Source: Acaryochloris sp. CCMEE 5410 (GTDB lineage: Bacteria > Cyanobacteriota > Cyanobacteriia > Thermosynechococcales > Thermosynechococcaceae). Taken from it: a DNA stretch of 64,000 nucleotides. Shown piece by piece: positions 2,277 through 17,439 of the stretch; within the stretch, counting starts at the first letter, position 1, and each line of letters opens with the position of its first letter. Location: contig NZ_AFEJ02000001.1 of assembly GCF_000238775.2 (NCBI RefSeq), forward strand, positions 3,720,001 through 3,784,000, given 5' to 3'. The translations under genes were made by a program, and so were the position numbers. The notes beneath the pieces are model-generated. The model had not been told where the DNA came from. It did not search any database and was given only the letters and a program-made list of their open reading frames with translations.

Positions 2277-3209
2277 CTAAGACAGAATAGGCCTTTGCAA
2301 GAGCCACTCCATCACCCGTTGTTTATGGGAGTCGATGCTGAAGACTCGCACTGCGTTACCTTGATATTCCGTCATTCTGCGATTGAGACTGTCCAGAACT
2401 TGCTGTGGATAGGTCCCCTCAAGGGGTGGACAACTTTGCCAAGATCCAACCTTAAAGTGTCTAGCATCGGCCTGTTCAATGCCAATTTGATTCCCTAACC
2501 GAAGTTGACCCAGAATCTGTTCCAGCACTTCAGCGCTCAGCTGTTCTTGGAGCCTGTCAGTCTGAGGTCGAGCTGTCTCAGAGCGATGGCCATTGTTCAG
2601 CGGTGTAGTACAGGCAACATCGTCTGCACATCGGTAGCCTGCCAGTAAGGCTCGATTGATCTCCACCACATGATGAGAAAAACGATGATCGGTGGTCTTA
2701 GCATCCGGTAGTCGGTCAGCCTCGCTTTGGTTGGTAATTACAACTCCTGATCCAACATATTTTCCAGGTGGAATTTCCACATCCTGGATCAGCGCATGCA
2801 TCATCACAATACAGCGGTGCCCGACCTTGGCATTAAACACCGTTGATCGAAAGCCGATAAAACAATCATCGCCAATATAGGCAGGTCCGTGAATCAAAGC
2901 CATATGGGTAATGCAGGTATGTTCACCAATCCAGACCGAGTAGGACTCACCATCATCTCCGGTGACTCGCCCTCGCTCTAAACCGTGGATGACCACACCA
3001 TCCTGAATATTGGTGTTCCCACCGATGTAAAAGGGCATCCCCTCATCTGCTCGAATGGATGTGCCGGGGGCAATTAAGACCTGATGCCCTAGACGAACAT
3101 CTCCGATCAAGCTCGTTGAGGGATGCACATAGGCTGACTCATGGATTTGAGGCTGATCCAACCCTCGATCCCAAGGAGTTGGAGGCGAAGGTTGCTGACG
3201 TAGAGGCAT
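2277..3209 (-). CDS. Short CcmM-like gamma-carbonic anhydrase with one RubisCO small-subunit-like domain
   Basis: A 310-residue protein. Residues 20-185 are a left-handed beta-helix gamma carbonic anhydrase of the CcmM kind. The three metal-ligand histidines are present (H75 in [10 protein letters not shown]102 and H107 in [13 protein letters not shown]), as is the [15 protein letters not shown] segment. Cysteines at 194 and 200 match the redox disulfide pair described in CcmM. Residues about 222-308 form a single RubisCO-small-subunit-like domain ([30 protein letters not shown]), whereas carboxysomal CcmM normally has three to five. It is the last gene of the thrS - SgcJ - hisI unit, 37 bp after hisI, with a GGAG site before the ATG. 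It is probably a second, zinc-starvation copy and not the main carboxysome scaffold. Whether it enters carboxysomes is unknown. Confidence 0.85.
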
Positions 3210-3246
3210 CTTTAATACTCCATTGATTCAAAGTCGGCTGAACCCA

Positions 3247-3732
3247 TCAAAGCTGAGTTGGATTAGGGGCATCTCCATAGACCTGTTTAGGGTCAAAGGT
3301 TTTAGCAGCTTCGGTGAAGGTCAAGGCAATGGGAGAGGAGCTATCCACTGCTTCTGTCCCTACGGGAATTTGACGATAAAAACAGGATCGATAGCCCACA
3401 TGGCAACTGGCTCCAGAACCCGCAACAGTCACCCGCATCCATAGGCAGTCTTGATCATCATCAATCAGTAACTGCTGGACGTATTGAACTAAGCCACTGG
3501 TCGCCCCTTTGTGCCAGAGGGTCTGGCGACTGCGGCTGTAGTAATGGGCCTCTCCCGTTTCAATCGTTTTCATCAGTGCAGTCTGATTCATATAGGCATG
3601 CATGAGCAGTTCACCCGTCTGGGCATCTGTGGTCACCACAGGAATTAAACCGTCTGCATCAAATTTGGGGGAAAGCAGCGTTCCTTCTTCAACTTCTTCG
3701 ACAGAGGTACGTTGAGCAAATAGGAGAGTCAT
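3247..3732 (-). CDS. hisI: Phosphoribosyl-AMP cyclohydrolase (HisI) with altered zinc site
   Basis: A 161-residue monofunctional HisI, the enzyme that opens the adenine ring of PR-AMP in histidine synthesis. Family signatures are clear: [30 protein letters not shown] and [11 protein letters not shown]. Canonical enzymes have D-C-D-x-D, where the Asp residues bind magnesium and the Cys is one of three zinc ligands. Here the segment is D91-D92-D93-Q94-D95, so the zinc Cys is replaced by Asp, while C110 and C117 are kept and a new Cys sits at 96. The loop before C110 is two residues longer than in E. coli HisI. The gene lies between the SgcJ-like and CcmM-like genes in the thrS unit. It is probably a zinc-sparing paralogue, with the main hisI elsewhere. 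Confidence 0.88.
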
Positions 3733-3774
3733 AATAGGCCTCAGAGAAAAGGATGGGTAAAGCAGTAAGCATCT

Positions 3775-4311
3775 TTAAGACATTTTTTCCGGCATGCTTG
3801 AAGAGTGGTGATCAACGATTAGCAAGCGATCGCCCATTTTGCGATAGACAAAGGTAAATCTCGCCATCAGATCGGACGGTTGGCCTTCTTTGACCACTGC
3901 AAAGGCATAGAGACCAGAATTAACAGCCAGATCACAAAAAACCTGGATATTTTGCTCCACGATCCGACCATTCGGCTTAAGGGCCAGAAAGCCTTGGAAG
4001 TAATCTTCAATTTCAGCAGGGGTATGTCGGACGCGATTGGACACCGTGGGCACCAGAATGGCATCAGGGGCATAGGTTTTGACCACTTCACTCGGTCGTC
4101 CCGTTTTCAGAGACTGATCCCACTGCTCAAACAAATCAGCAATTTCCGATGGGGCCACGGTTGGGCAGCCAGTTTCAGCTAAAACAGGTGTACAAAAAAG
4201 ACTCAATAGTACACAGCAGCCCAGTAGCATTCCGATCGCATTCTTGATTCTGAGAAATGTTCTCTGCTGGGGATGATCTGAGCTGCAGGGCTGATAGGCA
4301 ACGTTCATCAT
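3775..4311 (-). CDS. SgcJ/EcaC-like (SnoaL-fold) exported protein
   Basis: A 178-residue protein. The start is ATGATG at 4309-4311, 10 bp after the thrS stop and preceded by TAGGA, so an earlier ATG inside thrS is not needed. An N-terminal hydrophobic stretch (GMLLGCCVLLSLFCTPVLAE) looks like a signal peptide, with cleavage after VLA. The mature part has the NTF2/SnoaL-like cone fold pattern seen in SgcJ/EcaC proteins (LFEQWDQSLKTG, VVKTYAPDAILVPTVSN, YFQGFLALKPNG, ARFTFVYRK, LLIVDHHSS). No enzymatic activity can be assigned. Its place between thrS and hisI puts it in the zinc-starvation unit, and a periplasmic or lumenal location is inferred from the signal peptide. Confidence 0.75.
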   Translation of the reverse strand: MMNVAYQPCSSDHPQQRTFLRIKNAIGMLLGCCVLLSLFCTPVLAETGCPTVAPSEIADLFEQWDQSLKTGRPSEVVKTYAPDAILVPTVSNRVRHTPAEIEDYFQGFLALKPNGRIVEQNIQVFCDLAVNSGLYAFAVVKEGQPSDLMARFTFVYRKMGDRLLIVDHHSSSMPEKMS

Positions 4312-4321
4312 TTTTCCTACT

Positions 4322-6172
4322 CTAAATGTGTTGTTTGGCATCAATGGCGGCCTGCATTTTTTCGCACAGTTCGGGGAGCTTCAATAGCTCCTGCTCTTCT
4401 GAATGCCGAGTTCGAATATTGAGGGCCTGGGCTTCGACTTCTTTTTGACCCACCACGGCGACCACCGGAATTTTTTCCAGGGCTGATTGGCGAATTTGTT
4501 TTCCTAAACGCTCTCCCGTCTGATCGATTTCAGCCCGAAACCCCTGCTGCTGAAGCTGCGCTAAGACTTCAAGGGCATAGGGACGTTGGGCATCACTGAC
4601 GACGAGTAGCCGAATTTGTACAGGAGCTAGCCATAGGGGGAAATCTCCCGCATAATTCTCGATTAAAATGCCAAAGAATCGTTCTAAAGACCCGAAAATG
4701 GCCCGATGAATCATAATCGGGCGCTGCCGCGTTCCGTCTGCGGCGACATATTCCATCTTGAAGCGCTCGGGTAAGTTAAAGTCCACCTGAATCGTGGAGC
4801 ATTGCCACAGCCGCCCGATCGCATCCCGTATCTTTAGATCGATCTTCGGTCCATAAAAGGCACCCCCGCCTTCATCCGTCAGGTAATCCCAGCCTTTACG
4901 CTCTAGGGCTGTACGCAAGGCCTGAGTAGCCAAGTCCCAAATATCATCACTGCCCACCGATTTATCAGGCCGGGTTGAGAGATTAACCTCATAATCCCGA
5001 AAGCCAAAGTCCGATAAAACCGTTTCGGTGAGATCCAGAACCGCCAAAATCTCGTCGGCCACCTGATCCGGTAGACAAAAAATATGGGCATCGTCTTGGG
5101 TAAAGCCTCGGACCCGCATCAGTCCATGTAGGGTCCCAGAGCGTTCGTACCGATAGACCGTCCCCAACTCCGCCCACCGCAGGGGAAACTCTCGGTAGGA
5201 ATGGAGATCGTGCTGATAGGTGAGCACATGAAAAGGACAGTTCATGGGTTTGATCTGATAGGCCTGGGTCTCCACTTCCATTTGATCAAACATGCTGTCC
5301 CGGTAGAAGTCGAAATGACCCGAGGTCTTCCACAGATCTAGATTGGCCATATGGGGGGTATAGAGCAACTCATATCCCCCCTGTGTATGCGCTTGTCGCC
5401 AGTAGGTTTCAATGACCTGGCGAATTCGAGCCCCTCGGGGATGCCAAAAGACCAGTCCTCCGCCAGCGTTGTCTTCAATACTAAAAAGCTTCAGATTTTT
5501 GCCCAACAGGCGATGGTCTCGACGCTGGGCTTCTTCTTTTTGGTGCAGGTAAGCTTTTAACTGCTTCGGTGTTTCCCAGGCGGTTCCATAAATCCGCTGC
5601 AGCTGCGCTTGGGTTTCATCGCCACGCCAGTAGGCTCCGGCGACGCTTTCAAGCATAAAGGCCTTAGAGTGCAGTTCCCCCGTACTGTTGAGATGGGGAC
5701 CTGAGCACAGATCCCACCAAAATTCATTGGGGGCCACTGGTAGAGGCTCAATTAGTGAGGCTTCCGCCTCGGGATGCTGGGTCCGTCCGGTATCAGGACT
5801 GCCAATAAAATAGCGGGTAATGGTTTCCCCCGCCGGAATCTGGGCCAATATTTCTAATTTGTAGGGTTCTTGCAACTGTTCCAGTTCGGCCTGCATCTGA
5901 TCGCGATCCACTTGTTCGCGGATGATCGGCAAATTGGCTTTGATAATCCGCCGCATCTGAGTTGCGATCGCATCTAAATCCTCTGGCGTAAATGCCTGGG
6001 CACGGTCAAAGTCATAGTAGAAACCGTTCTCAGTCGTTGGACCAATCGTCACCTTCGTCTCAGGAAACAGATGCTGCACCGCCATGGCCATCACATGGGC
6101 GCAGGTGTGGCGGAGTCGCTGCAATTTTTCGGTGGAATTGGGCGCTGACAGGGTCGAAGAAGCAGTAGACAT
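4322..6172 (-). CDS. thrS: Threonyl-tRNA synthetase, zinc-starvation (T2-type) copy
   Basis: A 616-residue ThrRS without the N-terminal TGS domain. The editing domain keeps its HxxxH (HTCAHVM) and CxGPH (CSGPHLN) signatures, and the class II core keeps its motifs. The catalytic zinc ligands are present: Cys in KPMNCPFH, His in FTQDDAHIF and His in IMIHRAIFG. In Anabaena, a second ThrRS is induced by zinc limitation through Zur and replaces a zinc-sensitive constitutive enzyme. This copy matches that arrangement because a Zur-type palindrome lies 39 bp upstream and the downstream genes belong to zinc economy. No Shine-Dalgarno sequence is obvious before the ATG. A second thrS would be expected elsewhere in the genome. 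Confidence 0.95.
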
Positions 6173-6210
6173 GGAGGCTTGAAGGGAAGGGTGAAGGGTT
6201 GCTTAAGCAT

Positions 6211-6227
6211 ATGATAATGATTATCAT
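6211..6227. promoter_or_regulatory. Zur-type operator shared by divergent thrS and folE units
   Basis: ATGATAATGATTATCAT is a perfect 8-1-8 palindrome around the G at 6219, containing the 7-1-7 core. It sits 39 bp from the thrS start on the minus strand and 84 bp from folE on the plus strand, so one bound repressor could control both units. Confidence 0.88.
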
Positions 6228-6310
6228 TATATCTGTATAATGCCAGTTTGCTTTTAGAGCCGACTGGATCTTGAAGTGTCCCCTTATCCCTTTCCACGTT
6301 AGGAGTTTCT

Positions 6311-6946
6311 ATGACCGTGCCTTCCATCCCTTCATTTGTTCCTGAGACGATTACCACTGAAGCTCAGCCCATCGTCTCGGAGGCCGAAATGGAGGCCGCC
6401 GTCCGTACGTTATTGCTGGGTATGGGTGAAGATCCTGATCGAGAAGGTCTGCGAGATACCCCTAAGCGAGTGGTTAAATCTTTAAAATTTCTGTCTTCGG
6501 GTTATCAGCAATCCCTGGATGAATTGCTGAATGGGGCCGTCTTTTCTGAAGACCTGGATGAAATGGTCCTAGTGCGCGATATTGATCTCTTTAGTTCCTG
6601 CGAACATCACATTTTGCCTATCATTGGTAAAGCCCATGTAGCCTATATTCCCAACGGCAAAGTGATTGGCCTGTCGAAAATCGCCCGCATCTGTGAAATG
6701 TATGCTCGGCGGCTTCAGGTACAAGAACGGTTAACCGCCCAAATTGCGGATGCCTTGCAGGGCCTCCTAAAGCCCCAAGGGGTGGCTGTGGTGGTAGAAG
6801 CCAGTCATATGTGTATGGTGATGCGAGGGGTGCAAAAACCCGGATCTTGGACCTCCACCAGCGCCATGCGAGGCGTCTTTTCTAGCGATGCCCGCACTCG
6901 CCAAGAGTTCTTTAACCTGATCGCCCACGCACCAGCTATTCGCTAG
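6311..6946 (+). CDS. folE: GTP cyclohydrolase I, type IA
   Basis: A 211-residue FolE, the enzyme that converts GTP to dihydroneopterin triphosphate at the start of folate and pterin synthesis. The zinc ligands of the type IA family are intact: SSCEHHILP supplies Cys and His, and [10 protein letters not shown] supplies the second Cys. The N-terminal 30 residues are variable. AGGAG at 6301-6305 fixes the start. This is the ordinary zinc-dependent type and not the zinc-independent FolE2, so its place in the regulon suggests either extra copies to capture scarce zinc or metal delivery by the GTPase that follows. It begins a plus-strand unit with the COG0523 gene 27 bp downstream. Confidence 0.95.
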
Positions 6947-6973
6947 TACCCACAGCTTGGACCGAACAGCACT

Positions 6974-7948
6974 ATGCTTCCTGTCCCTGGACTCTTTGAA
7001 TATCGGTTGCCCGTCACCCTGATCACAGGCTTTTTGGGGAGTGGTAAAACCACTCTCTTAAACCATTTAATGCGCCATTTGGGGGATCGACGTGCGGCAG
7101 TGTTTGTCAATGAATTTGGAGCTATTGACATTGATAGCCAAATTCTGGTGACCGTGGATGAAGATCTGGTGACCTTGTCTAACGGCTGCATCTGCTGCCA
7201 GATCAAGGATGATTTTCTGATGGCCTTCCGACGGGTCTTGGCCTATAACCAAATGCAAACGTCCGCCGGGAAACGGGGGCTAGATGCCATTTTTTTGGAA
7301 ACCTCCGGGATGGCCGATCCCTATCCGCTGATGCTCACCTTTAGAGCGACTGAACTCTGGAGCCTGACCCGTTTGGATGCAATCTTGACCGTTGTGGATG
7401 CTGAGACCTTTACGGCTGAACATTTCCAAAGTCAGACGGCCCTTGCTCAAATTCAACATGGTGACATCATCCTGTTGAATAAAACTGATCTAGTCGATCA
7501 AGAGCAGCTTAAGTCTGTAGAGACTGAGATTCGGCACCTAAAGCCCCAGGCCAGGATACTGCCGATGACCTATGGCCAAGTGCCCCTTTCCAGCGTTTTA
7601 GATGTGGATCTCTATTCCGAGGATATGGAAACAGGCTCACCCTCAGGAGTCCAGCATCTGCAGAATGACGGGTTTGTCGCTGTCCCCTTTGAAAGCGATC
7701 GCCCCTTTAGCTTAAGAAAATTCCAGAAATTTCTGGACTATCAGCTCCCCTCAGAAGTCTTTCGAGCGAAAGGGGTTCTCTGGTTTGACGAAAGTCCCCA
7801 CAGACATCTATTTCAACTCAGTGGTAAACGGAGCCAGCTTCAGGACGAAGCTTGGCATGATCCCCCCAGAAACCAACTGGTGTGCATTGGCCGTAACCTA
7901 GATGAAAAACAATTACAATATCAGCTCCATCAGTGTCTTGCCCCATGA
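6974..7948 (+). CDS. COG0523 (CobW-family) GTPase, putative metal chaperone
   Basis: A 324-residue G3E GTPase. The Walker A is GFLGSGKTT (residues about 19-27), the metal-binding CxCC motif lies in NGCICC, and the guanine-specificity motif is NKTD. The C-terminal CobW_C domain (VFRAKGVLWF, LVCIGRNLDE) is complete. There is no His-rich linker, unlike the second COG0523 protein at 15102. Members of this family linked to Zur are thought to deliver zinc to client enzymes using GTP hydrolysis. Here the gene directly follows folE and ends in an ATGA overlap with the next gene, so the two products are probably made together. FolE is a reasonable client, but the sequence does not prove this. Confidence 0.93.
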   Translation: MLPVPGLFEYRLPVTLITGFLGSGKTTLLNHLMRHLGDRRAAVFVNEFGAIDIDSQILVTVDEDLVTLSNGCICCQIKDDFLMAFRRVLAYNQMQTSAGKRGLDAIFLETSGMADPYPLMLTFRATELWSLTRLDAILTVVDAETFTAEHFQSQTALAQIQHGDIILLNKTDLVDQEQLKSVETEIRHLKPQARILPMTYGQVPLSSVLDVDLYSEDMETGSPSGVQHLQNDGFVAVPFESDRPFSLRKFQKFLDYQLPSEVFRAKGVLWFDESPHRHLFQLSGKRSQLQDEAWHDPPRNQLVCIGRNLDEKQLQYQLHQCLAP

Positions 7949-8703
7949 GTAGTCCTTCTGTTATTGCCGTCGCTGGCCCCTTTGGCAGCGGTAAAACCAC
8001 CTGGATTAACCAGTTTTTAAAGAATGAAACGGCTCTCTCCTATTATTTCTATCCGGGACTAGACCGAAGCCCCGTTGACCTGATTCGAATTGGCTATTGT
8101 TTCCCTTGGGTTCAGGTCATGTCTGATCTGCAAGCGCCCCAGGTGTTCTCCTCTCTGCCCGACGGAGCAGTCATTTATCTAGAGCTAGACTTTCTTGAGC
8201 CCATAGAACCTCTTCTACCGAAGGCACTTCCCTGTCATCACGTGGCTGTCTTGCCGCCTGATCTGCAAGAGTCTGCCTGGCACGAATGGGCAGATGAGAT
8301 TGTGACCGGGAACGATATTGCGATTCCAAATGCAACCCAGCCACCGGAGCGATGGCACGCCCCCTTACAGGGGCAAGTCTTTGATCCTGCCAGCTTAGAG
8401 GTGGTACTGACGGAACTAATAGAGGGGGCCTATGGTGAGGTGCATCGCATCAAAGGTATCTTTGAGATGCCCGATGGCCAAGCCCTTTACATTGATTTTG
8501 TGGCCGGGCTGGAGGGAGTTGAATATACCGAACTCAATATTCCCCGTTGGCTAGAAGGACGCCCCGATCGCTGGAGTGGGATTGAAGTCATAGGCAACAA
8601 CCTCCAGCCCAAAATCATCTCCGAAACCCTCTTGGATGGAGGCCTTACTGATCAAATCATTGCCTATTATCAACAGCAATACCAAGCCTTAAGCCCTGTA
8701 TAA
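7945..8703 (+). CDS. CobW-like P-loop protein lacking the CxCC metal motif
   Basis: A 252-residue protein if it starts at the ATG at 7945, which overlaps the previous stop as ATGA; an in-frame ATG at 7933 is also possible. It opens with a strong Walker A (AVAGPFGSGKTTWINQFL). The C-terminal 90 residues resemble a CobW_C domain (VHRIKGIFEMPDGQALYIDF, RWSGIEVIGNNL). Between them the usual G3E features are missing: no CxCC, and no clear NKxD guanine-recognition motif. It therefore looks like a shortened, diverged COG0523 relative that may bind a nucleotide but not metal in the usual way. Co-translation with the COG0523 GTPase suggests a partner or regulator of that protein. No function is established. 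Confidence 0.75.
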   Translation: MSSPSVIAVAGPFGSGKTTWINQFLKNETALSYYFYPGLDRSPVDLIRIGYCFPWVQVMSDLQAPQVFSSLPDGAVIYLELDFLEPIEPLLPKALPCHHVAVLPPDLQESAWHEWADEIVTGNDIAIPNATQPPERWHAPLQGQVFDPASLEVVLTELIEGAYGEVHRIKGIFEMPDGQALYIDFVAGLEGVEYTELNIPRWLEGRPDRWSGIEVIGNNLQPKIISETLLDGGLTDQIIAYYQQQYQALSPV

Positions 8704-8713
8704 AAGGTTCAGC

Positions 8714-9526
8714 ATGAAACTTGCGGTAATTTCCTGTATTCATGGCAATTATGAGGCCCTGAATACCGTGCTCTCTGATATTGATCACCATCAAGCCGAC
8801 CAAATTTACTGTCTGGGTGATTTAGTCGGTTACGGTCCCTACCCCAATGCCGTGGTGGAGATGATTCGTTCCCTCGATATTCCCACCTGCCAGGGCTGCT
8901 GGGATGAAGATGTGGTCGAAGGTCTGAATGCCTGTGAATGTAGCTATCCTTCCCTGATCGCAGAGAAGCGGGGAAGGCAAGCCCATGAATGGACCAACCA
9001 AGTCATCCATCCAGAGGTGAGGGACTATCTGGCCCAACTGCCCCTGACCCTACAGACTGAGAACCTAGCCTTTGTCCACGGGAGTCCCAACAGTCAGCAT
9101 GAATATTTACTGCCCAGCATGGATGGATTTGCGGCCCTAGAGCGGGTGGTCTCCACCGACGCAGATGTCTTGTTCTGTGGCCATACCCATGTTCCCTATG
9201 TGCGGGAGCTAGAGGATGGCAAGCTCTCCGTGCGCGTTCACCAACCGGGACAAGACGACCAGCAGCATCAGTTCACGGCGTCTTTGAAGCGAATTATCAA
9301 TGCCGGATCCGTGGGAGAACCCCGCCATGGACGTCCCAATGCCACCTACGTTCTCTATGACACGGATACGGCCCAGGTCACCCTTCAGGAGGTGCCCTAT
9401 GACTATGAGAAGACCTGTGCAGCCATTATTGACAAGGGTTTGCCGCCCATTTTTGCCTGGCGCTTAGCGCGGGGGATGGAGTTTGCCGAACGAGCCGACG
9501 ATCCTAGTCATGTATGTCAGCGGTAG
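8714..9526 (+). CDS. Metallophosphoesterase-like protein with altered metal site and extra cysteines
   Basis: A 270-residue calcineurin-like (YfcE/MJ0936-type) phosphoesterase fold. GDLVGYGP (D36), FVHGSPN (H122) and CGHTHVPY (H157, H159) are conserved. The first metal motif, normally DxHGN, is SCIHGN, so the metal-bridging Asp is Cys8. The GNHD motif is replaced by G61-C62-W63-D64. Around it the protein carries C59-x2-C62 and C74-x-C76, a four-cysteine pattern that could bind a metal or cluster. AAAGG precedes the ATG, 10 bp after the P-loop gene. It is the fourth gene of the folE unit and so probably under the same operator. Substrate and metal are unknown, and catalysis may be changed or lost. 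Confidence 0.82.
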   Translation: MKLAVISCIHGNYEALNTVLSDIDHHQADQIYCLGDLVGYGPYPNAVVEMIRSLDIPTCQGCWDEDVVEGLNACECSYPSLIAEKRGRQAHEWTNQVIHPEVRDYLAQLPLTLQTENLAFVHGSPNSQHEYLLPSMDGFAALERVVSTDADVLFCGHTHVPYVRELEDGKLSVRVHQPGQDDQQHQFTASLKRIINAGSVGEPRHGRPNATYVLYDTDTAQVTLQEVPYDYEKTCAAIIDKGLPPIFAWRLARGMEFAERADDPSHVCQR

Positions 9527-9551
9527 CTGGCCCCAATTCAGGAGGTAGAAA

Positions 9552-10289
9552 ATGGAACAGTGGGCAATTTTAAGTGGGATAGAAGGTAATCTCGGCGCCT
9601 ATGAGGCGGTACTGGCAGATATCCGTCGACAGCGCTTTCCGGTGTCGGATGTATATGTTTTAGGCGATTTTGTGGGCTTCAAGGGAGATAACGAGGCCGT
9701 AATCCGACGACTTCAGTCTCCGGGTGCTGGGGAATTAGAGCCCCAAATTTGTATCGGTTGGTGGGAAGAGCAGTGCTTTAATTTATACGGGTTGGGCAGC
9801 TTACCCGATGCCCCAGAGCTGGTAGACCAAGAGGGGGCCGATGCAGTTCAGCGTCTCTGGGAATCGGTCTCCCGGCAGTCCGTACAGTGGATGCGATCGC
9901 TCCACTTTGGATTTCACGAATTAGACTGCCTGCTGATACATGGCAGTACAGTGGGTTATGCAGATGAACTCACACCGGATACACCGGCGATGCAATTGTG
10001 CGATCGCTTAATTAGAGCCGATGCCAATCACCTCTTCTGTGGCCGCTCAGGACTCGCGTTTGAATGTTGGATTGAGCCAGAGGATCTACGCTCCACGGTC
10101 ATGACCCTAGAGGGCACGCAGACGACCCCAGCCCAAAAATACACATCTCGACGCATCATCGGTGTAGGCAACGTTGGACGCCAGCCTGGACAGGCAACCT
10201 ATACTCTTTATAATCCTGCCAACAATCAAATCACCTTTAAAACCGTGAAATACAGTAAGGCCAAAGGCTTTGCTGTTCAGCACTCCTAG
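9552..10289 (+). CDS. Degenerate metallophosphoesterase-like protein (pseudoenzyme paralogue)
   Basis: A 245-residue paralogue of the preceding protein. The fold markers remain (YVLGDFVGF with D39, LLIHGST with H130), but most metal ligands are gone: DxHGN has become SGIEGN, GNHD has become GWWEEQ, and GHTH has become G164-R-S-G. It keeps cysteines at 67 and 75 near the former GNHD site. AGGAGG stands 7 bases before the ATG, 25 bp after the previous gene, so it is well translated within the folE unit. A binding or scaffold role is more likely than catalysis, by inference. A second, truncated copy of its C-terminal third lies at 11114. Confidence 0.8.
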   Translation: MEQWAILSGIEGNLGAYEAVLADIRRQRFPVSDVYVLGDFVGFKGDNEAVIRRLQSPGAGELEPQICIGWWEEQCFNLYGLGSLPDAPELVDQEGADAVQRLWESVSRQSVQWMRSLHFGFHELDCLLIHGSTVGYADELTPDTPAMQLCDRLIRADANHLFCGRSGLAFECWIEPEDLRSTVMTLEGTQTTPAQKYTSRRIIGVGNVGRQPGQATYTLYNPANNQITFKTVKYSKAKGFAVQHS

Positions 10290-10327
10290 AGGTGTTTTGG
10301 GCAATTGATGCATATGCGATCGATCGC

Positions 10328-10642
10328 TTATTGCTTTGAAGGCTCACTCCCTAAGGCAACCACTTCTTTATTGAGTTGCTCCCCTACTTCATCCTCAGCC
10401 ACATCCAAGTCGTAATCCATTTGCAATCCCAACCAAAATCGTGGCGACATATTGAAATAACGAGCTAAACGAAGGGCTGTATCCGCTGTAATACGTCGCT
10501 TTCCATGAACAATTTCGTTAATCCGTCGTGCAGGAACTCGAAGTGCCAAAGCCATCTGATTTTGACTAAGATTCATTGGCTTTAGAAACTCTTCTAAAAG
10601 TACCTCACCAGGATGTACTGGCATCAGCTTCTCTTCATTCAT
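10328..10642 (-). CDS. higA: HigA-type antitoxin (XRE family)
   Basis: A 104-residue antitoxin with the HigA/VapI signature: MPVHPGEVLLEEFLKP followed by a helix-turn-helix (LSQNQMALALRVPARRINEI, TADTALRLARYF) and FWLGLQMDYDL. It follows the toxin gene by 9 bp on the minus strand, the toxin-first order typical of higBA. The antitoxin would bind HigB and autorepress the pair. The module is oriented against the folE unit and sits between that unit and a broken copy of its last gene. Confidence 0.9.
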   Translation of the reverse strand: MNEEKLMPVHPGEVLLEEFLKPMNLSQNQMALALRVPARRINEIVHGKRRITADTALRLARYFNMSPRFWLGLQMDYDLDVAEDEVGEQLNKEVVALGSEPSKQ

Positions 10643-10651
10643 ACTTCCACC

Positions 10652-10933
10652 TCAATGATAATCAACGATCTCTACGTCTAAAGCATCACCGTCTTGCCAC
10701 AAAAAGCAAATTCGCCATTGATCATTAATCCGAATGCTGTGCTGACCTTTTCTATCACCAACAAGGCGCTCCAATCGATTAGCCGGTGGGACGCGAAGAT
10801 CTTGAAGGGTTTCTGCTCGATTTAGCATCCGCAGTTTCCGCAATGCCACTTGCTGAATGTCCGAGGGTAATTTGCGAGAACGCTGACGCTCAAAGACTTT
10901 CTGAGTCTCTTTATCTTTAAAGGTTCGGATCAT
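10652..10933 (-). CDS. higB: HigB-type toxin (RelE superfamily mRNA interferase)
   Basis: A 93-residue toxin with the HigB/RelE-fold signature: MIRTFKDKETQKVFERQ, LRVPPANRLERLVGDRKG and QWRICFLWQDG, ending in VEIVDYH. Such toxins cleave ribosome-bound mRNA. It is upstream of higA on the same strand and forms a complete module. No promoter was identified in the 180 bp upstream, which contains nothing else recognisable. Confidence 0.9.
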   Translation of the reverse strand: MIRTFKDKETQKVFERQRSRKLPSDIQQVALRKLRMLNRAETLQDLRVPPANRLERLVGDRKGQHSIRINDQWRICFLWQDGDALDVEIVDYH

Positions 10934-11113
10934 CCACTAATGGTGCTGTGCTGTGTATCCATTCTATAACGCATCACGTTAAACGGTCAGGGATATATTA
11001 CTGGACTACACGAGATTAAGTTTTCAGTATTTGTGGGAGGCCCAATTGGTTGCAGTCACAGGCACGAGTAGAGATAAAAATGATTACGCCGCAGTATTGG
11101 CCGAGAATCTGAG

Positions 11114-11427
11114 TGCATCGCTTAATTCGAGCCGATGCCAACCATCTCTTCTGTGGCCGCTCAGGACTAGCCTTTGAATGTTGGATTGAGCCAGGGGATC
11201 TACGCTCTACGGTCATGACCCTAGATGGCACTCAGTCGACCCCACCACAAAATTACACGCCTCGACGCATCATCGGTGTGGGCAATGTTGGACGCCAGCC
11301 CGGACAGGCAACCTATACCCTTTATAATCCCGCCAGCAATCAAATCACCTTCAAGACCGTGACATACAAACAGGCCAAAGGCTTTGCCTTGCAGCACTCA
11401 ATTGGTGTCAATCAAGTAAGCCACTAG
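11114..11427 (+). pseudogene. Truncated duplicate of the degenerate metallophosphoesterase gene
   Basis: This stretch encodes a near copy of the last third of the protein at 9552-10289 (RLIRADANHLFCGRSG, AFECWIEPGDLRSTVM, RRIIGVGNVGRQPGQATYTL). DNA from about 10003-10289 and 11116-11403 aligns base for base with scattered, mostly third-position changes. The N-terminal two thirds are absent. An ATG at 11113 opens the frame, but nothing suggests it is used. The C-terminus runs about ten residues longer (IGVNQVSH). The repeat pair flanks higBA, so an ancestral tandem duplication was probably broken by insertion or deletion around the module. Confidence 0.85.
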
Positions 11428-11477
11428 CACCAACCTTCACGGGTACTCGCTAAGTAGTCGTCAATGGCTTGCTTGGG

Positions 11478-11657
11478 CTAGTGGGTAACTCCGAAAAATA
11501 GTTGTGGATTAAAAGGGGCAGCAGACTGTTGTATTTCCTCGACTTCAACATCATTTTCCTGCGCCAGTTGCGCTAACACCAACTGAACTAACCGGAACTT
11601 GTCAGCATGGGATAAGGCTGAGATCGAGGGTAATAATTCTGCTATTGATGTTGACAT
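11478..11657 (-). CDS. Small acidic protein, antitoxin-like
   Basis: A 59-residue frame from an ATG at 11655-11657 to TAG at 11478-11480. The sequence begins MSTSIAELLPSISALSHADK and continues with a helical segment (FRLVQLVLAQLAQENDVEVE) and a short tail ending in FFGVTH. This resembles the short helical antitoxins common in cyanobacteria, but no family can be named with certainty. It is the third of three leftward genes starting at 12246, 12 bp after the 40-residue frame. There is no toxin directly beside it. Confidence 0.5.
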   Translation of the reverse strand: MSTSIAELLPSISALSHADKFRLVQLVLAQLAQENDVEVEEIQQSAAPFNPQLFFGVTH

Positions 11658-11669
11658 GGTAATTGATCC

Positions 11670-11792
11670 CTAAATGCAGACTTCTTCAAGTTCATTGGGC
11701 TGCTCAAAGTTTGATTGAGCTTTTGTAATGTCCTTGGCAGCATTCAAATCTATTTTTCGAAGTGCCCAGTTAACGTTAGAGCTATCCGTCAT
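11670..11792 (-). CDS. Very small hypothetical protein
   Basis: A 40-residue frame from an ATG at 11790-11792 to TAG at 11670-11672. It overlaps the end of the 154-residue gene by 11 bp, which suggests translational coupling, and precedes the 59-residue frame by 12 bp. The product is polar and acidic at its C-terminus (NFEQPNELEEVCI). No family is recognised, and it may not be real. Confidence 0.35.
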   Translation of the reverse strand: MTDSSNVNWALRKIDLNAAKDITKAQSNFEQPNELEEVCI

Positions 11793-12246
11793 CTCTATAA
11801 CTTTCAGAGGAAAAATCCTTAAAAGAATAATTTGCATATTTGTTATAGTTTTTAAATGGAAAACTAGCGGGACCTACTATTAGTTTATTATAAATAATTT
11901 CCCTAGTTCTCTTCTCAAGCTTAATGTATTTCTTGAGACTTTTAGGCTTATAGCCATGATGGATTTTTTCGTAGTGAGTATCTCTAAATAAAACCCATTC
12001 ATGTGGATGTGTATCATATTTACAGATGAGCACTATGAATAACTCATCATATCCACCACAAATCCAAGATGAATGCATGAAATCATTCCATTTTCTCCCA
12101 ATTACTAAGCTAAATGATATGCCTTTAGAAAACTGGTAACAATAAATATAAACATTAAGATCTTGAAAGATGCCCCATTTAGCCTGTGGATCTCTATGTA
12201 CTAGAAAAGGTAGGAAATTACACTGATATTTTTGAGATTTCGACAT
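11782..12246 (-). CDS. Hypothetical protein, 154 residues
   Basis: Not recognised. The protein is rich in Tyr, Lys and Phe (FSKGISFSLVIGRKWNDF, CKYDTHPHEWVLFRDTHY), has no signal peptide or membrane segment, and is more AT-rich than the zinc-island genes, which suggests acquisition from elsewhere. It heads a three-gene leftward group with two very small frames. The toxin-antitoxin surroundings make a defence or toxin-related role possible, but nothing in the sequence shows one. An imperfect palindrome lies 55-130 bp upstream. Confidence 0.55.
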   Translation of the reverse strand: MSKSQKYQCNFLPFLVHRDPQAKWGIFQDLNVYIYCYQFSKGISFSLVIGRKWNDFMHSSWICGGYDELFIVLICKYDTHPHEWVLFRDTHYEKIHHGYKPKSLKKYIKLEKRTREIIYNKLIVGPASFPFKNYNKYANYSFKDFSSESYRDDG

Positions 12247-12299
12247 CTTTCATAATTAGGCAAAAAATTTTATCAACTAAGAATGTTCATGGATAGACG

Positions 12300-12380
12300 G
12301 ACATCTAACTAAAATTATACGGATGGCGGCTGATAACTCCGGCTGGAGAGTTATTATCCGCCAACTACCATATGAATCCG
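12300..12380. repeat. Imperfect palindromic repeat, copy 1
   Basis: The core GGCGGCTGATAACTC pairs with GAGTTATTATCCGCC across a short loop, with further weaker pairing outside. A related sequence occurs at 13606-13690 with the same order (CTAACTA.AATTA, GCGGCTGATAACTCCG, TATTATC.GCCAA.TACC). Both copies lie just upstream of a leftward gene, between gene modules. Confidence 0.65.
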
Positions 12381-12432
12381 AGATAAGGGCATTATCAAGC
12401 AAGAGGTAAGATAACTCCGAGGTGCCCCTCAA

Positions 12433-12635
12433 CACTTGGAGACATGGGTGCGACAGCAAAAATGGGGGGTATGGATTTTGCGATCGCGCGTATCCCGAGG
12501 TTGGGGGAGTTGACTTTGAAAACTTCTGAAAGCCTTCACCCCTAACTGCTAAATATGCTAGTTTGCGATGGCCGAAGGCCGGTTGGAGACCATCGCAAAC
12601 TAGCAACATCCCACTCCCACTGATAAGAACATTCT
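12433..12635 (+). pseudogene. COG0523 gene fragment (copy A) carrying a hairpin element
   Basis: The start aligns with bases 15645-15695 of the intact COG0523 gene: CTTGGAGACATGGGTGCGAC here against CTTGGAGGCATGGGTTCGAG there. After the hairpin the text AGCAACATCCCACTCCCACT resumes the match to AGCAACATCCCCCTGCCATT. Between lie about 80 bases absent from the gene but shared with copy B at 14676. The frame is broken by stops. It is a relic of duplication of the COG0523 gene. Confidence 0.75.
12557..12604. repeat. Perfect 15 bp hairpin repeat
   Basis: GCTAGTTTGCGATGG at 12557-12571 is the exact reverse complement of CCATCGCAAACTAGC at 12590-12604, around an 18-base loop. The loop is nearly the reverse complement of the loop in the related hairpin inside the COG0523 gene at 15691-15730, so the same element is present in the opposite orientation. 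Confidence 0.85.
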
Positions 12636-12668
12636 GGCCGTGTATGCCAAACGTCCGATGCAGCCAGT

Positions 12669-12881
12669 TTATATATCATCAGGCCCAAGCCCAGTTTTCT
12701 TTGAAATCCGCGCTAGCATACGAGGCCCAATTTCTTCCCTGTCATGGAAAGCAAATACGAAATCTGGCCAGCCATCACGGGACAAGATGCAGTGCGAGCC
12801 AGACTGCCGTTTCACCATCCAGCCAATTTTGAGTAGCGCTGCTAAAACCCGCTTGGACTTGGTACTTCCCCACTTGCTCAT
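12669..12881 (-). CDS. hicA: HicA-type toxin (mRNA interferase)
   Basis: A 70-residue HicA/YcfA-like protein with the double-stranded-RNA-binding fold signature: KRVLAALLKIGWMVKRQSGSH, with the catalytic His in SGSHCIL, followed by RDGWPDFVFAFHDREEIG and MLARISKKTGL. The start overlaps the end of hicB by 4 bp (ATGA-type coupling). Here the antitoxin gene comes first on the transcribed strand. Confidence 0.9.
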   Translation of the reverse strand: MSKWGSTKSKRVLAALLKIGWMVKRQSGSHCILSRDGWPDFVFAFHDREEIGPRMLARISKKTGLGPDDI

Positions 12882-13084
12882 GCAGCATTAAATGTAACGC
12901 TGACCAATTCAGGTTGAGTTTCACCATTCTCAATGCGTTCTGCAAGCACTCGTAGGGCTAGAGCTTGTACTTTGGTTCTAGCTTCCTCTTGTGTTTGGCC
13001 ATAGAGCATGACCCCAGATAGTTCTGGAATCTCTGCAATCCAGCGTCCATCTTCTTCTTGCTCCAGTTCAATTTTTAAAATCAT
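12878..13084 (-). CDS. hicB: HicB-type antitoxin
   Basis: A 68-residue short HicB with the partial RNase H-like fold: IELEQEEDGRWIAEIPELSG, then YGQTQEEARTKVQALALRVL. It lacks a separate DNA-binding domain. It pairs with hicA through a 4 bp overlap. A 10 bp inverted repeat (13128-13230) lies 44 bp upstream of its start. Confidence 0.88.
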   Translation of the reverse strand: MILKIELEQEEDGRWIAEIPELSGVMLYGQTQEEARTKVQALALRVLAERIENGETQPELVSVTFNAA

Positions 13085-13127
13085 GGCTATAACTACTGTT
13101 TCTACTCTACGACCCCAACTATGGTAG

Positions 13128-13230
13128 CCAGTGCAGCTTTTATGAAGGCTAACGGCACTCAGTCAAGGGCGCAAGCATTAATTTCAAAGAGTCAAATCAT
13201 AAGCGTGATTCGATCGTACCGCTGCACTGG
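13128..13230. repeat. Inverted repeat between gene modules
   Basis: CCAGTGCAGC at 13128-13137 is the exact reverse complement of GCTGCACTGG at 13221-13230, with 83 bases between. A GCTAAC/GTTAGC pair sits close to the arms (GCTAACGG near 13150, GTTAGTTAGC near 13231). The arrangement recalls integron attC sites, but the spacing of the core sites does not match the standard order. Confidence 0.5.
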
Positions 13231-13255
13231 TTAGTTAGCTTGATGCATTCTAAAA

Positions 13256-13597
13256 TTATGGCTTGCTTTCTGGACGCCAACCACAATTAGCACAGAATGA
13301 GGCTTTTGGTGTGCGCAATAGGTGACCACAACTGGGACATTCTTCCCCCCAATCACACAAGCGGTGATGGTAAATAACATCAAAGTGGAAACCTGGCAAA
13401 CCTGTCATTAATTCAAAGATTTGAGTTGCCTGGGAATAACAATTTCTCTTTGCAGTCGTCAAATCACAATTATGAGCAATGCGATAGTCGATTAGTTCTT
13501 GCTTGGCGAGAGGAAGTAAAGGTTCTATTTGCTGCCATTCCTGCTCATCCAGAAATGGCATTTCTCGCTCACATTTCCAGCAATAATAGCTCTTCAT
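13256..13597 (-). CDS. Hypothetical protein with three CxxC zinc-ribbon-like motifs
   Basis: A 113-residue protein not assigned to a family. It has CWKC near the N-terminus and CPSC and CANC near the C-terminus, the last two spaced like a zinc ribbon. The middle is helical (QEWQQIEPLLPLAKQELIDY, TAKRNCYSQATQIFELM). It is soluble. It stands alone between two palindromic sequences in the toxin-antitoxin stretch. A zinc-binding protein inside a zinc-starvation island is notable but may be coincidence. Confidence 0.6.
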   Translation of the reverse strand: MKSYYCWKCEREMPFLDEQEWQQIEPLLPLAKQELIDYRIAHNCDLTTAKRNCYSQATQIFELMTGLPGFHFDVIYHHRLCDWGEECPSCGHLLRTPKASFCANCGWRPESKP

Positions 13598-13605
13598 GGA
13601 TGAAG

Positions 13606-13690
13606 TGATCTAACTACAATTAGATACATAGCGGCTGATAACTCCGACTTTGGAGTATTATCTGCCAAGTACCGTATAAATCTGAAATTA
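13606..13690. repeat. Imperfect palindromic repeat, copy 2
   Basis: Second copy of the element at 12300-12380: GCGGCTGATAACTCC pairs imperfectly with GGAGTATTATCTGCC. It lies 9 bp upstream of the start of the 113-residue gene. Confidence 0.6.
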
Positions 13691-13750
13691 GGTCTTACTG
13701 TGGAGCTTGACAAATCCGCTAATAGATAGCGAAGTAACACAATGTCAGGC

Positions 13751-13951
13751 TTAGAGTAGCTGGGCATACACATCATCCTCAGTGTTATCCCACACAGCAT
13801 CTAATGACGTTTGACTTGCTGCTGGTAGCCAAAAACCAGTTTCATCATCAGGCAGCAGCGTAACTAGCACCTTGGTTCCTTCGGGAAGCTCTGCTGATTC
13901 CAGAAGTTCAATTTTTCCTTGGCGAATCGTAGCCCAAAGTGTTTGCAGCAT
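13751..13951 (-). CDS. Orphan antitoxin-like protein
   Basis: A 66-residue protein from an ATG at 13949-13951; an in-frame ATG at 14002 would add 17 residues. The pattern LWATIRQGKIELLESAELPE followed by GTKVLVTLLPDDE is typical of short cyanobacterial antitoxins of the AbrB/MazE-like kind, with an acidic helix at the C-terminus (DAVWDNTEDDVYAQLL). No toxin gene lies downstream; the 150 bp that follow hold only a palindromic repeat. It may be an orphan or the survivor of a broken module. Confidence 0.6.
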   Translation of the reverse strand: MLQTLWATIRQGKIELLESAELPEGTKVLVTLLPDDETGFWLPAASQTSLDAVWDNTEDDVYAQLL

Positions 13952-14049
13952 ATCTCTTTGTAAAGAATAACTAGTCTTACTTTGATTTGATGCCTCAATC
14001 ACTGATTTTGGCGAGCACTCTACAGAGCCGAGATTTCCGATACATACTT

Positions 14050-14376
14050 TCAGGAACCTCCAACTTCAATCACTTCACCTAACGTAATCGTATTCAACGC
14101 GTCACGAGTATCTGGTACCAGAGGAAGTAAGTCAGAAAGCTTGTTGCTGGTTGCTACAAGAACAACGACTGCCACTCCAGCTTGTACCAAATTCTGCTGA
14201 TAACGCAAATTTTGATCTGTAGTGAGGAGAACCGTGAAGCCCTCTTGTCTCATAAGCTGCAGCAATTCACCATTCTTTTTCCCTGACCATCCCATCTCAA
14301 CAACTGTGCGTATATCGTAATCGGCGAACTCACGCTTCAAAGGGCGCGGGGCACACTCATCAAGCAGGATTCGCAT
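14050..14376 (-). CDS. DUF5615 PIN-like toxin
   Basis: A 108-residue PIN-like protein: MRILLDECAPRPLKREF supplies the first acidic cluster, GKKNGELLQLMRQEGFTVLLTTD the second, and the end has VVVLVATSNKLSDLLPLVP. DUF5615 proteins pair with DUF433 antitoxins, and the DUF433 gene lies directly upstream with a 17 bp overlap. The expected activity is RNA cleavage. Confidence 0.85.
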   Translation of the reverse strand: MRILLDECAPRPLKREFADYDIRTVVEMGWSGKKNGELLQLMRQEGFTVLLTTDQNLRYQQNLVQAGVAVVVLVATSNKLSDLLPLVPDTRDALNTITLGEVIEVGGS

Positions 14377-14584
14377 AGGCCATCAACATTTCCTTTGCTA
14401 ATTCAAGGGCTGCAATCGCCTGTTGTCGATTAACGCTAGGAAAATGGTCTAGAAAAATTTCTAGTGAATCGCCTGCTTCGAGATAATCAAGTAAATTCTT
14501 TATGGGTACGCGTGTCCCCACAAAAACAGGAGTTCCTCCCAAAATATCGGGGTCGCTATGAACAATATGTGATGTTAAGGGCAT
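14360..14584 (-). CDS. DUF433 antitoxin
   Basis: A 74-residue protein from an ATG at 14582-14584; an in-frame ATG 21 bases earlier is possible. The family pattern is DPDILGGTPVFVGTRVPI, then LLDYLEAGDSLEIFLDHFPS and AIAALELAKEML. It overlaps the DUF5615 toxin gene by 17 bp, which couples the two. Confidence 0.87.
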   Translation of the reverse strand: MPLTSHIVHSDPDILGGTPVFVGTRVPIKNLLDYLEAGDSLEIFLDHFPSVNRQQAIAALELAKEMLMAYANPA

Positions 14585-14675
14585 AACCAATATAGTCGCC
14601 AGCACTTAGAACCATTATATCTTGGTGCCTCTTAGACATAACTAAAATTCCATGGACTTAGACTGCGCCTCAACT

Positions 14676-14830
14676 TGTAGACGTCTTGGAGGCATGGGGT
14701 CGAGAGCAGAAATGGGGGGTATGGATTTTGCGATCGCGCGTATCCCAAGGTTAGGGGAGTTGACTTTGAAAACCTCTGAAAGCCCTCACCCCCAACTGTT
14801 AAATACGCCCTTTTGAGATCGCAAAACCGC
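14676..14830 (+). pseudogene. COG0523 gene fragment (copy B)
   Basis: The start (CTCAACTTGTAGACGTCTTGGAGGCATGG, 14680-14708) aligns with 15631-15662 of the intact COG0523 gene. The next 80 bases match copy A at 12470-12555 almost exactly (GGGGGGTATGGATTTTGCGA, GGGGAGTTGACTTTGAAAAC) and are absent from the gene. A collapsed form of the hairpin (TTTTGAGATCGCAAAA) follows. The frame is not open. Copies A and B bound the HicAB to DUF433 stretch as direct repeats. Confidence 0.75.
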
Positions 14831-14891
14831 TATCTCACAAATTACTCACCCTGCATAAGGTATCGATATAGTTCCACCGCTTGATGTGGTC

Positions 14892-14910
14892 AATGATAAT
14901 GATTATCATT
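14892..14910. promoter_or_regulatory. Zur-type operator (perfect 9-1-9 palindrome)
   Basis: AATGATAATGATTATCATT, identical to the operator at 2096, lies 191 bp upstream of the second COG0523 gene. The long spacer, which holds no other gene, suggests an extended 5' leader. Confidence 0.87.
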
Positions 14911-15101
14911 TTTAAAAGCCCCCCTTTACTCTATATGCCCTGATGTCTATGGTGATGCCTGATCTTTCCCCCACCCTCGCCACAAGTGCGCGGCGCTTTG
15001 AATAGCTCTCTACTCCCAAGCGACGGTAAGACTATCTGCTGCAGTGATTCGTTCTTCAGCTTATTCATCCAGAGCCAACTCACCTCAACCGGAGTTCACT
15101 C

Positions 15102-16163
15102 ATGATTCAACTTCCCACTCAACAAGCCTCACCCCAAACCGATCTGAAACTTCCCAAACGAGGGTTGCCCGTGACAATCATTACGGGCTTTCTCGGCAGC
15201 GGTAAGACCACACTGCTCAATCATATTCTCCAAGACTGCCAGGATCTAAAAGTCGCGGTGTTGGTCAATGAGTTTGGTGATATCGATATTGATAGCCAGC
15301 TCTTGGTTTCTGTTGAGGAAGATATGGTGCAGCTTAGCAATGGCTGTATCTGCTGCACCATCAACGACGACTTGGTGGAAGCGGTCTACAGCATTTTAGA
15401 GCGGAACGAGAAGGTGGATCACTTGGTGATCGAAACAACGGGAATAGCCGATCCATTGCCCATAGCACTCACGTTTGCGATGCCGCCCCTGCGGAATTTA
15501 ACCCAACTAGATTCCATCGTCACCCTAGTGGATGCAGAAGCCTTCTCCCCCCAGCATTTTGAGAGTGAAGCCGCCCTTAACCAAGTGTCCTATGCTGACA
15601 TTATTGTGCTCAATAAAACGGACTTAGCTGCCCCTCAACAGGTCGATACCTTGGAGGCATGGGTTCGAGAGCAGAAAGGAGAGGCACGGATTTTGCGATG
15701 GTCTCTGACCGGCCTTCGGCCATCGCAAAACAGCAACATCCCCCTGCCATTGATTTTAGATACGAATCTCTTTCAGCCAGAGCACTATACCGCAGAAGCA
15801 AAAGCAATGGCTGAGACGACGCATGATCACCATGACCCTCACTGCCACGACCACCACCATCACTCCAACCACCTCGTCAATGATGGGTTGGTCTCGATGG
15901 CGTTTGAGAGCGATCAACCATTTGATTTGGACAAATTCCAAGATTGGCTCGCCGATGACCTTTCAGAAAATGTCTTTCGAGCTAAGGGATTCCTATGGTT
16001 TGGCACCATTACCCCCCGCTATATCTTCCAGCTCAGCGGCAAACGCTACACCTTAGACGCGGACAAGTGGCCTGCAACCCCCAAGACACAGCTCGTCCTG
16101 ATTGGTCGCGAGTTAGATACCCCAAAACTACAGCATCAGCTTCGAGACTGTTTAACCTCTTAG
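15102..16163 (+). CDS. COG0523 (CobW-family) GTPase with His-rich metal-binding loop
   Basis: A 353-residue G3E GTPase: Walker A GFLGSGKTT, CxCC in NGCICC, NKTD and an intact CobW_C domain (VFRAKGFLWF, LVLIGRELD). Between the two domains lies a His-rich loop (HDHHDPHCHDHHHHSNH) that would bind zinc, a feature of zinc-linked COG0523 proteins. Just before it the protein has about a dozen extra residues (WSLTGLRPSQNS) relative to the paralogue at 6974; they are encoded exactly by a palindromic hairpin repeat. CGGAG precedes the ATG by about 10 bases. It stands alone behind the operator at 14892 and is a probable zinc chaperone or store. The extra segment falls at a surface linker and may be tolerated. 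Confidence 0.94.
   Translation: MIQLPTQQASPQTDLKLPKRGLPVTIITGFLGSGKTTLLNHILQDCQDLKVAVLVNEFGDIDIDSQLLVSVEEDMVQLSNGCICCTINDDLVEAVYSILERNEKVDHLVIETTGIADPLPIALTFAMPPLRNLTQLDSIVTLVDAEAFSPQHFESEAALNQVSYADIIVLNKTDLAAPQQVDTLEAWVREQKGEARILRWSLTGLRPSQNSNIPLPLILDTNLFQPEHYTAEAKAMAETTHDHHDPHCHDHHHHSNHLVNDGLVSMAFESDQPFDLDKFQDWLADDLSENVFRAKGFLWFGTITPRYIFQLSGKRYTLDADKWPATPKTQLVLIGRELDTPKLQHQLRDCLTS
15691..15730. repeat. Hairpin repeat inserted in frame within the COG0523 gene
   Basis: TTTTGCGATGG at 15691-15701 pairs perfectly with CCATCGCAAAA at 15720-15730 around an 18-base loop. The loop is related to that of the hairpin at 12557 in reverse orientation. The element is translated as part of the GTPase without breaking the frame. 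Confidence 0.85.
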
Positions 16164-16204
16164 CCGATCTCATCCACATCAATGACCCACAGAAAGTCTC
16201 AACT

Positions 16205-16232
16205 AGATCTCCCAGTTACTTCTGGGGGATCT
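16205..16232 (+). terminator. Possible terminator hairpin after COG0523 gene
   Basis: AGATCTCCCAG pairs with CTGGGGGATCT with one mismatch around a 6-base loop, 41 bp after the COG0523 stop. There is no T-run, so factor-independent termination is uncertain. Confidence 0.35.
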
Positions 16233-16373
16233 GAGGCTCTAACCCACTGCAGCAGCCTATACAGGTGCTATAGCATCGTTAGAACCTAAGAATGAAAAAG
16301 CTCTCAGTACCGAGATATTCCCACGAAAGAAAAAGATTTTCTGAAGCCTCTGCTTAGTCCAATTTCCTAAGAT

Positions 16374-17439
<1,066 letters not shown>

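Follow-up and report, generated by a model that had tools for sequence, protein, structure and literature searches.

Two adjacent genes encoding metallophosphoesterase-like proteins close a zinc-starvation operon in Acaryochloris sp. CCMEE 5410, and neither protein carries the complete metal-binding motif of its fold. What could such a pair contribute when zinc is scarce? We addressed this question in a 64,000-nucleotide stretch of the 8.1-Mb genome (here called the window), starting from a preliminary description in which the metal sites of both proteins, MPE1 and MPE2, were considered dismantled. That view holds for MPE2 only, whereas MPE1 has a ligand candidate at every metal position.

MPE1 and MPE2 close a folE/COG0523 operon

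MPE1 and MPE2 are the last two genes of a folE/COG0523 operon that has an exact Zur box in front (Table 1). On the plus strand, the order is folE, COG0523, CbwC, MPE1, and MPE2, with junctions of 27 bp, a 4-bp ATGA overlap, 10 bp, and 25 bp, respectively; no gap therefore exceeds 27 bp. When the sequence was re-examined, both open reading frames were found at the coordinates first given for them, with the tight spacing and ribosome sites described, and the motifs SCIHGN and GCWD of MPE1 read as reported. MPE2 is separated from a partial second copy of its C-terminus by a toxin-antitoxin pair that resembles HigB/HigA (10328-10933, judged by eye). This copy, with homology from 11119 to 11400, is a duplication scar and probably a relic.

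Table 1. Positions in the window of the operon, its key codons, and flanking features
Feature	Position	Strand	Evidence or remark
Zur-box-like palindrome TGATAATGATTATCA	6212..6226		Between divergent thrS (-) and folE (+); exact match to TGATAATNATTATCA
folE, a GTP cyclohydrolase I paralogue that opens the operon	6311..6946	+	Pfam PF01227, 4e-76; NCBIfam folE
COG0523/CobW-family GTPase	6974..7948	+	Pfam cobW, 5e-52, and CobW_C, 8e-22
CbwC, P-loop protein with a CobW_C domain and without CxCC	7945..8703	+	Pfam CobW_C, 1.8e-5; in-frame GTG at 7933
MPE1, metallophosphoesterase fold with a re-liganded metal site	8714..9526	+	Pfam Metallophos_2, 3e-23; fold model against 3rqz, Z 25.4
Cys8 codon (Asp of DxH in relatives)	8735..8737	+	Alignment to relatives
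Cys62 codon (Asn of GNHD in relatives); the next codon, Trp63, is the former catalytic His	8897..8899	+	Alignment to relatives
Cys74-Glu75-Cys76 codons	8933..8941	+	Aligned with CGC of ars-operon (Car1-type) metallophosphoesterases
MPE2, metallophosphoesterase fold without a metal site (SGIEGN, GWWE, GRSG)	9552..10289	+	27% identical to MPE1; fold model
Incomplete duplicate of the MPE2 C-terminus	11113..11427	+	88% identical over 94 aa
thrS paralogue, divergent, sharing the Zur box at 6212-6226 with folE	4322..6172	-	Sequence comparison

MPE1 has gained soft ligands

The metal ligands of metallophosphoesterases are DxH (metal 1), the bridging Asp of the GD motif, the Asn of GNHD, the His of HG, and GHxH, and the His of GNHD is a catalytic helper. 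Alignment of MPE1 with its relatives and with 3rqz gave C8-I-H10, G-D36, G-C62-W63-D64, H122-G-S, and G-H157-T-H159. The full motif DxH-GD-GNH(D/E)-H-GHxH is thus absent from MPE1, with three residues replaced in all complete copies: Cys8 takes the place of the terminal Asp of DxH, Cys62 that of the Asn of GNHD (in every copy), and Trp63 that of the catalytic His (in every complete copy). His10, Asp36, His122, His157, and His159 are kept, and HGS and GHTH are intact. Consequently, each metal-ligand position is occupied by Cys, His, or Asp, and the catalytic His alone is gone. Judged from this alignment, metal 1 would see C8, H10, D36, and H159, and metal 2 would see D36, C62, H122, and H157. 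The suggestion that Cys8 substitutes for the bridging Asp was rejected on family knowledge, since the bridging residue is Asp36, which is retained and invariant.

Twelve of these and other positions (C8, H10, D36, C62, H122, H157, H159, C74, C76, C235, H266, and C268) are identical in 135/135 complete copies, down to Prochlorococcus. Of the cysteines in the proposed cluster, C59-x2-C62 with C74-x-C76, C62, C74, and C76 proved conserved but C59 did not, being present in only 115 of 138 rows, so that C59-x2-C62 was discarded as a motif; C8 is, like the other three, invariant in complete copies. Comparison with 27 outgroup sequences revealed a set of residues common to the 135 complete MPE1 proteins and absent or nearly absent outside them (C8, C62, W63, H91, H129, H205, C235, H266, and C268). 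Because C8, C62, H91, H129, H205, C235, H266, and C268 were gained relative to the outgroup, soft ligands have been added to MPE1, not lost, and on the alignment its residue changes are the reverse of decay. H91, H129, H205, and C235 had been overlooked, as had an invariant, MPE1-specific tail with D263, H266, and C268. Invariant cysteines number seven when C155, also present in canonical relatives, is included.

The fold of MPE1 is recognized both by its profile match and by its structural model (Table 1), which aligns with 3rqz over 218 residues and with SapH (3qfm) at Z 24.5. The model loses confidence in precisely three segments: the CxC loop (65-83), a stretch at 124-135, and the tail (257-270). 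A spatial cluster of the cysteines is therefore putative.

MPE2 has lost its metal site

The loss of DxH, GNHD, and GHTH from MPE2 was confirmed by sequence; the segments in their place are listed in Table 1. Of the metal site, only the Asp of GD (D39) and the His of HGS (H130) remain. MPE2 has no Pfam match, and its fold is identified by the model (pLDDT 90.3; Foldseek E 1.8e-11 against 3rqz). Picocyanobacterial MPE2 proteins are more diverged, which is why the first search returned one match in picocyanobacteria, and in nearly all of these organisms MPE2 lies directly downstream of MPE1. Several loci have a gene for a SAM-dependent methyltransferase between their MPE1 and MPE2 genes; the same gene is found inside the zinc cluster of A. 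variabilis.

CbwC, MPE1, and MPE2 form a three-gene cassette

The protein encoded upstream of MPE1, CbwC, has a Walker A motif, GxxGxGKT, in which G11, K12, and T13 of the aligned segment are invariant among 30 relatives. Its CobW_C domain (PF07683) scores 25.0 bits against a cut-off of 22. The CxCC metal motif is absent, and no conserved Cys was found in the 30 sequences. Members of the CbwC family are present at 128 of 138 non-identical MPE1 loci, normally directly upstream and on the same strand. The partner set had been described as the MPE1/MPE2 pair, and this pairing is real; the set is in fact three genes, however, with CbwC included at nearly every locus. The unit is a three-gene cassette, CbwC-MPE1-MPE2, that is kept together across cyanobacteria. 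Identity to the copies in the window is lowest for CbwC (27-72%), intermediate for MPE2 (37-80%), and highest for MPE1 (57-86%).

Two further genes recur beside the cassette. An FAD/NAD(P)-binding, Lys/Orn-monooxygenase-like protein is encoded there at 55 loci, mostly divergent from CbwC. We considered it as a disulfide reductase and rejected this assignment, as no CxxC-like pair was found in it. Directly upstream of CbwC, several loci carry a 138-aa gene matching the Pfam family 'NucS shadow ORF' (PF20704, 1e-54).

The cassette is conserved within cyanobacteria

An MPE1 orthologue (57-85% identity to the copy in the window) was detected in 92 of 386 genomes of the cyanobacterial phylum, in a few cases frameshifted or incomplete. 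MPE2 co-occurs in 92/92 of these genomes, and the two genomes with MPE2 only contain fragments. The identity of 57-86% between distant cyanobacteria, together with a sharp gap to paralogues, indicates that the MPE1 pattern is not due to chance; relic or chance status is rejected by this conservation and by the co-occurrence. A search for the four-cysteine variant returned the same substitutions only in cyanobacteria, the search of other phyla having covered a single strict scan of genome contigs together with records of plasmids and phages. Apparent spread to a "Spirochaeta" contig (NZGT01000074.1) that contains the cassette was dismissed as a binning error, because its other genes reach 89% identity to loci of marine Synechococcus and thereby mark the contig as marine Synechococcus-like. 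Phage carriage was likewise discounted, with one remote phosphodiesterase (26% identity) as the only candidate. On a plasmid of PCC 7002, MPE1 is missing and a truncated MPE2 lies beside a shortened CbwC relative; its neighbor Picosynechococcus PCC 7117 has a complete cassette with a Zur box. In the literature searched, we found neither a description of the cassette nor, as the preliminary description had also stated, a role for such a pair in zinc limitation. While the fold itself is known, the cassette seems to contain a metallophosphoesterase variant not previously described.

The cassette is linked to zinc genes and Zur boxes

In the window, the operon is part of a zinc island (2098-20341) that has strong Zur-box-like sites at 2098, 6212, 14894, and 16375, all four with ≤1 mismatch, around DUF1636, thrS/folE, COG0523, and hemB-znuA-znuC-znuB. 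Allowing ≤3 mismatches, the window contains 12 Zur-box matches versus 3.9 expected, and the four best are all upstream of zinc genes. Across loci, a Zur-like box (≤3 mismatches) lies upstream of the cassette directon at 75/107 loci versus 103/1135 other genes found there (p of about 5e-45 in Fisher's test, an overstated value because the loci are related; open reading frames were called mechanically). In picocyanobacteria, all of these boxes have 3 mismatches. The enrichment persists where no other zinc gene lies within 8.5 kb, at 17/26 versus 21/303 controls for non-picocyanobacterial loci and 10/12 versus 11/176 controls for picocyanobacterial loci.

The neighborhood points in the same direction. 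Among non-picocyanobacterial loci with ≥5 kb on both sides, 57/76 carry, no farther than about 8.5 kb away, one or more of COG0523, folE, hemB, znuA/B/C, thrS, hisI, cysS, and genes of the Fur family, and COG0523, folE, hemB, znuABC, thrS, and hisI are recurrent neighbors. The link to zinc limitation and the co-occurrence with Zur boxes and COG0523 proposed in the preliminary description are thus borne out. Since the cassette usually stands behind Zur-box-like sites, Zur control is predicted. In a zur mutant of PCC 7002, hemB-II, folE-II, G0131, and G0132 are derepressed, and G0129 ("phosphoesterase") and G0130 are not (PMC4628125). With gene numbers matched by order only, G0131 is likely the CbwC relative and G0129 the truncated MPE2; G0132, matched in the same way, corresponds to the FAD/NAD(P)-binding neighbor and is Zur controlled. 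In the published Zur regulon of WH8102, compared by description alone, none of the eight genes is described as part of the cassette.

Other members of zinc clusters were also noted. On the thrS side, the Zur-box operon includes a CaMKII_AD/NTF2-like protein (3775-4344, minus strand) that matches 3h51 with an E value of 6.5e-32 and the iota-class carbonic anhydrase 7c5x with only 0.005. It has the fold of metal-free iota-class carbonic anhydrases and is a candidate for a carbonic anhydrase that needs no zinc and would serve in zinc starvation; it was not found at the other cassette loci compared. The same cluster encodes a shortened CcmM-like protein (2277-3209, minus strand) with a gamma carbonic anhydrase domain and one RbcS-like domain, a relative of which adjoins hisI in Leptolyngbya PCC 6406. 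In an unusual pairing, zinc clusters contain a WD40-repeat-like protein encoded after COG0523 genes, in the window (3-665, minus strand) and at 21 loci.

The nearest relatives outside cyanobacteria are in arsenic operons

In the plasmid collection, the nearest non-cyanobacterial relatives of MPE1 (about 36% identity) are encoded in arsenic operons that also carry ArsR, ACR3, ArsM, ArsH, or ArsC. In these proteins, a CGC aligns with C74-x-C76, and GNYD replaces GNHD, so that the catalytic His is lost there too. A 2025 paper describes an ars-operon metallophosphoesterase with about 40% identity to Car1 (PMC12124457). Car1 has the metallophosphoesterase fold but acts as an arsenate reductase, and its Cys74 and Cys76 are reported to be essential (PMC12124457). 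The CxC pair in the loop after GNxD, a Car1-type feature, is found in all complete MPE1 copies, with the same residue numbers as in Car1. Positions 8 and 62 separate the groups: Asp8 and Asn62 occur in 6/6 ars proteins, and Cys occurs at both in 135/135 complete MPE1 proteins. An earlier tree that included MPE2 suffered from long branches and left MPE1 unresolved. In the best topology, the ars group is placed elsewhere than MPE1, with a p-AU of 0.09 for a single clade. Car1 and MPE1 as proven sisters are therefore unsupported, though also not rejected, and for this reason the CxC may be either shared or parallel. The arsenic connection, absent from the preliminary description, is the strongest hint to MPE1 chemistry. 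Tandem metallophosphoesterases occur in some ars operons (for example, locus L183, 2501-4012), one CxC/GNYD and one canonical without CxC, paralleling MPE1-MPE2; a tandem pair is also reported in an ars operon of Mucilaginibacter (PMC10652896).

Possible roles of the cassette

Our best guess for the role of the cassette is zinc hand-over or redox chemistry. We favor the option, raised in the preliminary description, of a metal- or cluster-binding module with a partner lacking a metal site. Specifically, the cassette may be a zinc-starvation split metallochaperone in which the thiolate metal site missing from CbwC is provided by MPE1, with MPE2 in a structural role, a reading to which we assign a probability of roughly one in three. 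Because CbwC lacks CxCC, MPE1 has thiolates, and the two are in constant company, the metal site and the motor could belong to one machine on separate chains. Release of Zur would lead to the production of CbwC, MPE1, and MPE2, which would form a complex. MPE1 would hold a thiophilic metal at its Cys/His/Asp site, most likely Zn2+ and possibly Fe2+ or Co2+; nucleotide binding or hydrolysis by CbwC would load or release this metal, MPE2 would have a structural or docking function, and a client enzyme would finally receive the metal. The fuller version, an NTP-driven machine for handing over zinc or another metal, with a COG0523-type motor and thiolate site split over two proteins and a dead twin as scaffold, is more doubtful. 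Consistent with a split metallochaperone are the 135-copy invariance, the gain of soft ligands, the 92/92 co-occurrence, CbwC at 128/138 loci, Zur boxes at 75/107, the GxGKT of CbwC without a conserved Cys, and derepression of the CbwC relative in the PCC 7002 zur mutant (PMC4628125). Counted against it are the low-confidence loop and tail of the MPE1 model, CbwC as the least conserved member, the loss of MPE1 from PCC 7002, and the eight-gene WH8102 regulon.

The main rival, which we regard as a tentative possibility, is that MPE1 is a Car1-like thiol redox enzyme in which C74 and C76 act on an oxyanion or disulfide and C8 and C62 are tuned metal ligands. The arsenic-operon relatives, with their aligned CGC and GNYD, and the essential cysteines described for Car1 argue for it, and the FAD/NAD(P)-binding protein found at 55 loci, whose PCC 7002 relative is Zur controlled (PMC4628125), would be a possible electron source. 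However, MPE1 loci are zinc loci and not ars loci, Car1-type proteins keep the Asp8 and Asn62 that MPE1 never has, the two groups were not recovered as sisters, and the FAD protein has no CxxC-like pair. Retention of the fold and most ligands, the Ap4A hydrolase SapH among the closest solved folds, and an operon shared with other zinc-enzyme paralogues (folE, thrS, hisI) would fit a phosphoesterase or nucleotide hydrolase, with MPE2 regulatory, that uses another metal and replaces a metal-dependent hydrolase in zinc starvation. We consider this unlikely, given that every complete copy has gained soft ligands and has Trp in place of the catalytic His, and that every copy has Cys for Asn; zinc-independent paralogues, by contrast, lose metal ligands (PMC2770081).

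Seven invariant cysteines, with C155 counted, could instead suggest an Fe-S or other cofactor protein, a sensor or enzyme using C8, C62, C74, and C76 (or C235 and C268). This is improbable, given that MPE1 has no recognized Fe-S motif, retains its His and Asp ligands, and shares C155 with canonical relatives. That MPE1 and MPE2 are degenerate relics carried in a zinc operon, as the lost motifs of MPE2 and the state of PCC 7002 might imply, has almost nothing to recommend it against 57-86% identity, invariant Cys and His residues across cyanobacteria, and complete co-occurrence; for MPE1, strong purifying conservation refutes it.

If the cassette is a split metallochaperone, the zinc-starvation response of cyanobacteria would have a further conserved element that seems not to have been described before. 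The carriers include Prochlorococcus and marine Synechococcus, whose habitats are very poor in zinc. For a CobW-like protein without a metal site of its own, the cassette would offer candidate partners that can be tested directly. MPE1 would also join Car1 as a second example of a hydrolytic metallophosphoesterase turned to thiol chemistry.

Comparison with known systems

MPE1 shares its whole-domain fold with the YfcE/SapH/3rqz-type calcineurin-like phosphoesterases (Metallophos_2) and differs from them in having two ligands changed to Cys, no catalytic His, extra Cys and His residues, and a C-terminal tail. Car1 of Rufibacter tibetensis and its ars relatives have the same fold, an aligned CxC loop, and no catalytic His (GNYD there, GCWD in MPE1), but they keep Asp8 and Asn62, belong to ars operons instead of zinc loci, and have no CbwC partner. 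Like the COG0523/CobW metallochaperones (YciC, ZigA, and ZNG1), CbwC combines a P-loop with CobW_C and is found in the same Zur-linked operons; unlike them, it lacks CxCC, and its similarity is weak (CobW_C E 1.8e-5). Finally, the cassette occupies the same loci, with Zur boxes, as the cyanobacterial Zur-regulated paralogues hemB2, folE2, thrS2, and hisI2, yet those replace zinc enzymes, whereas MPE1 gains metal-type ligands.
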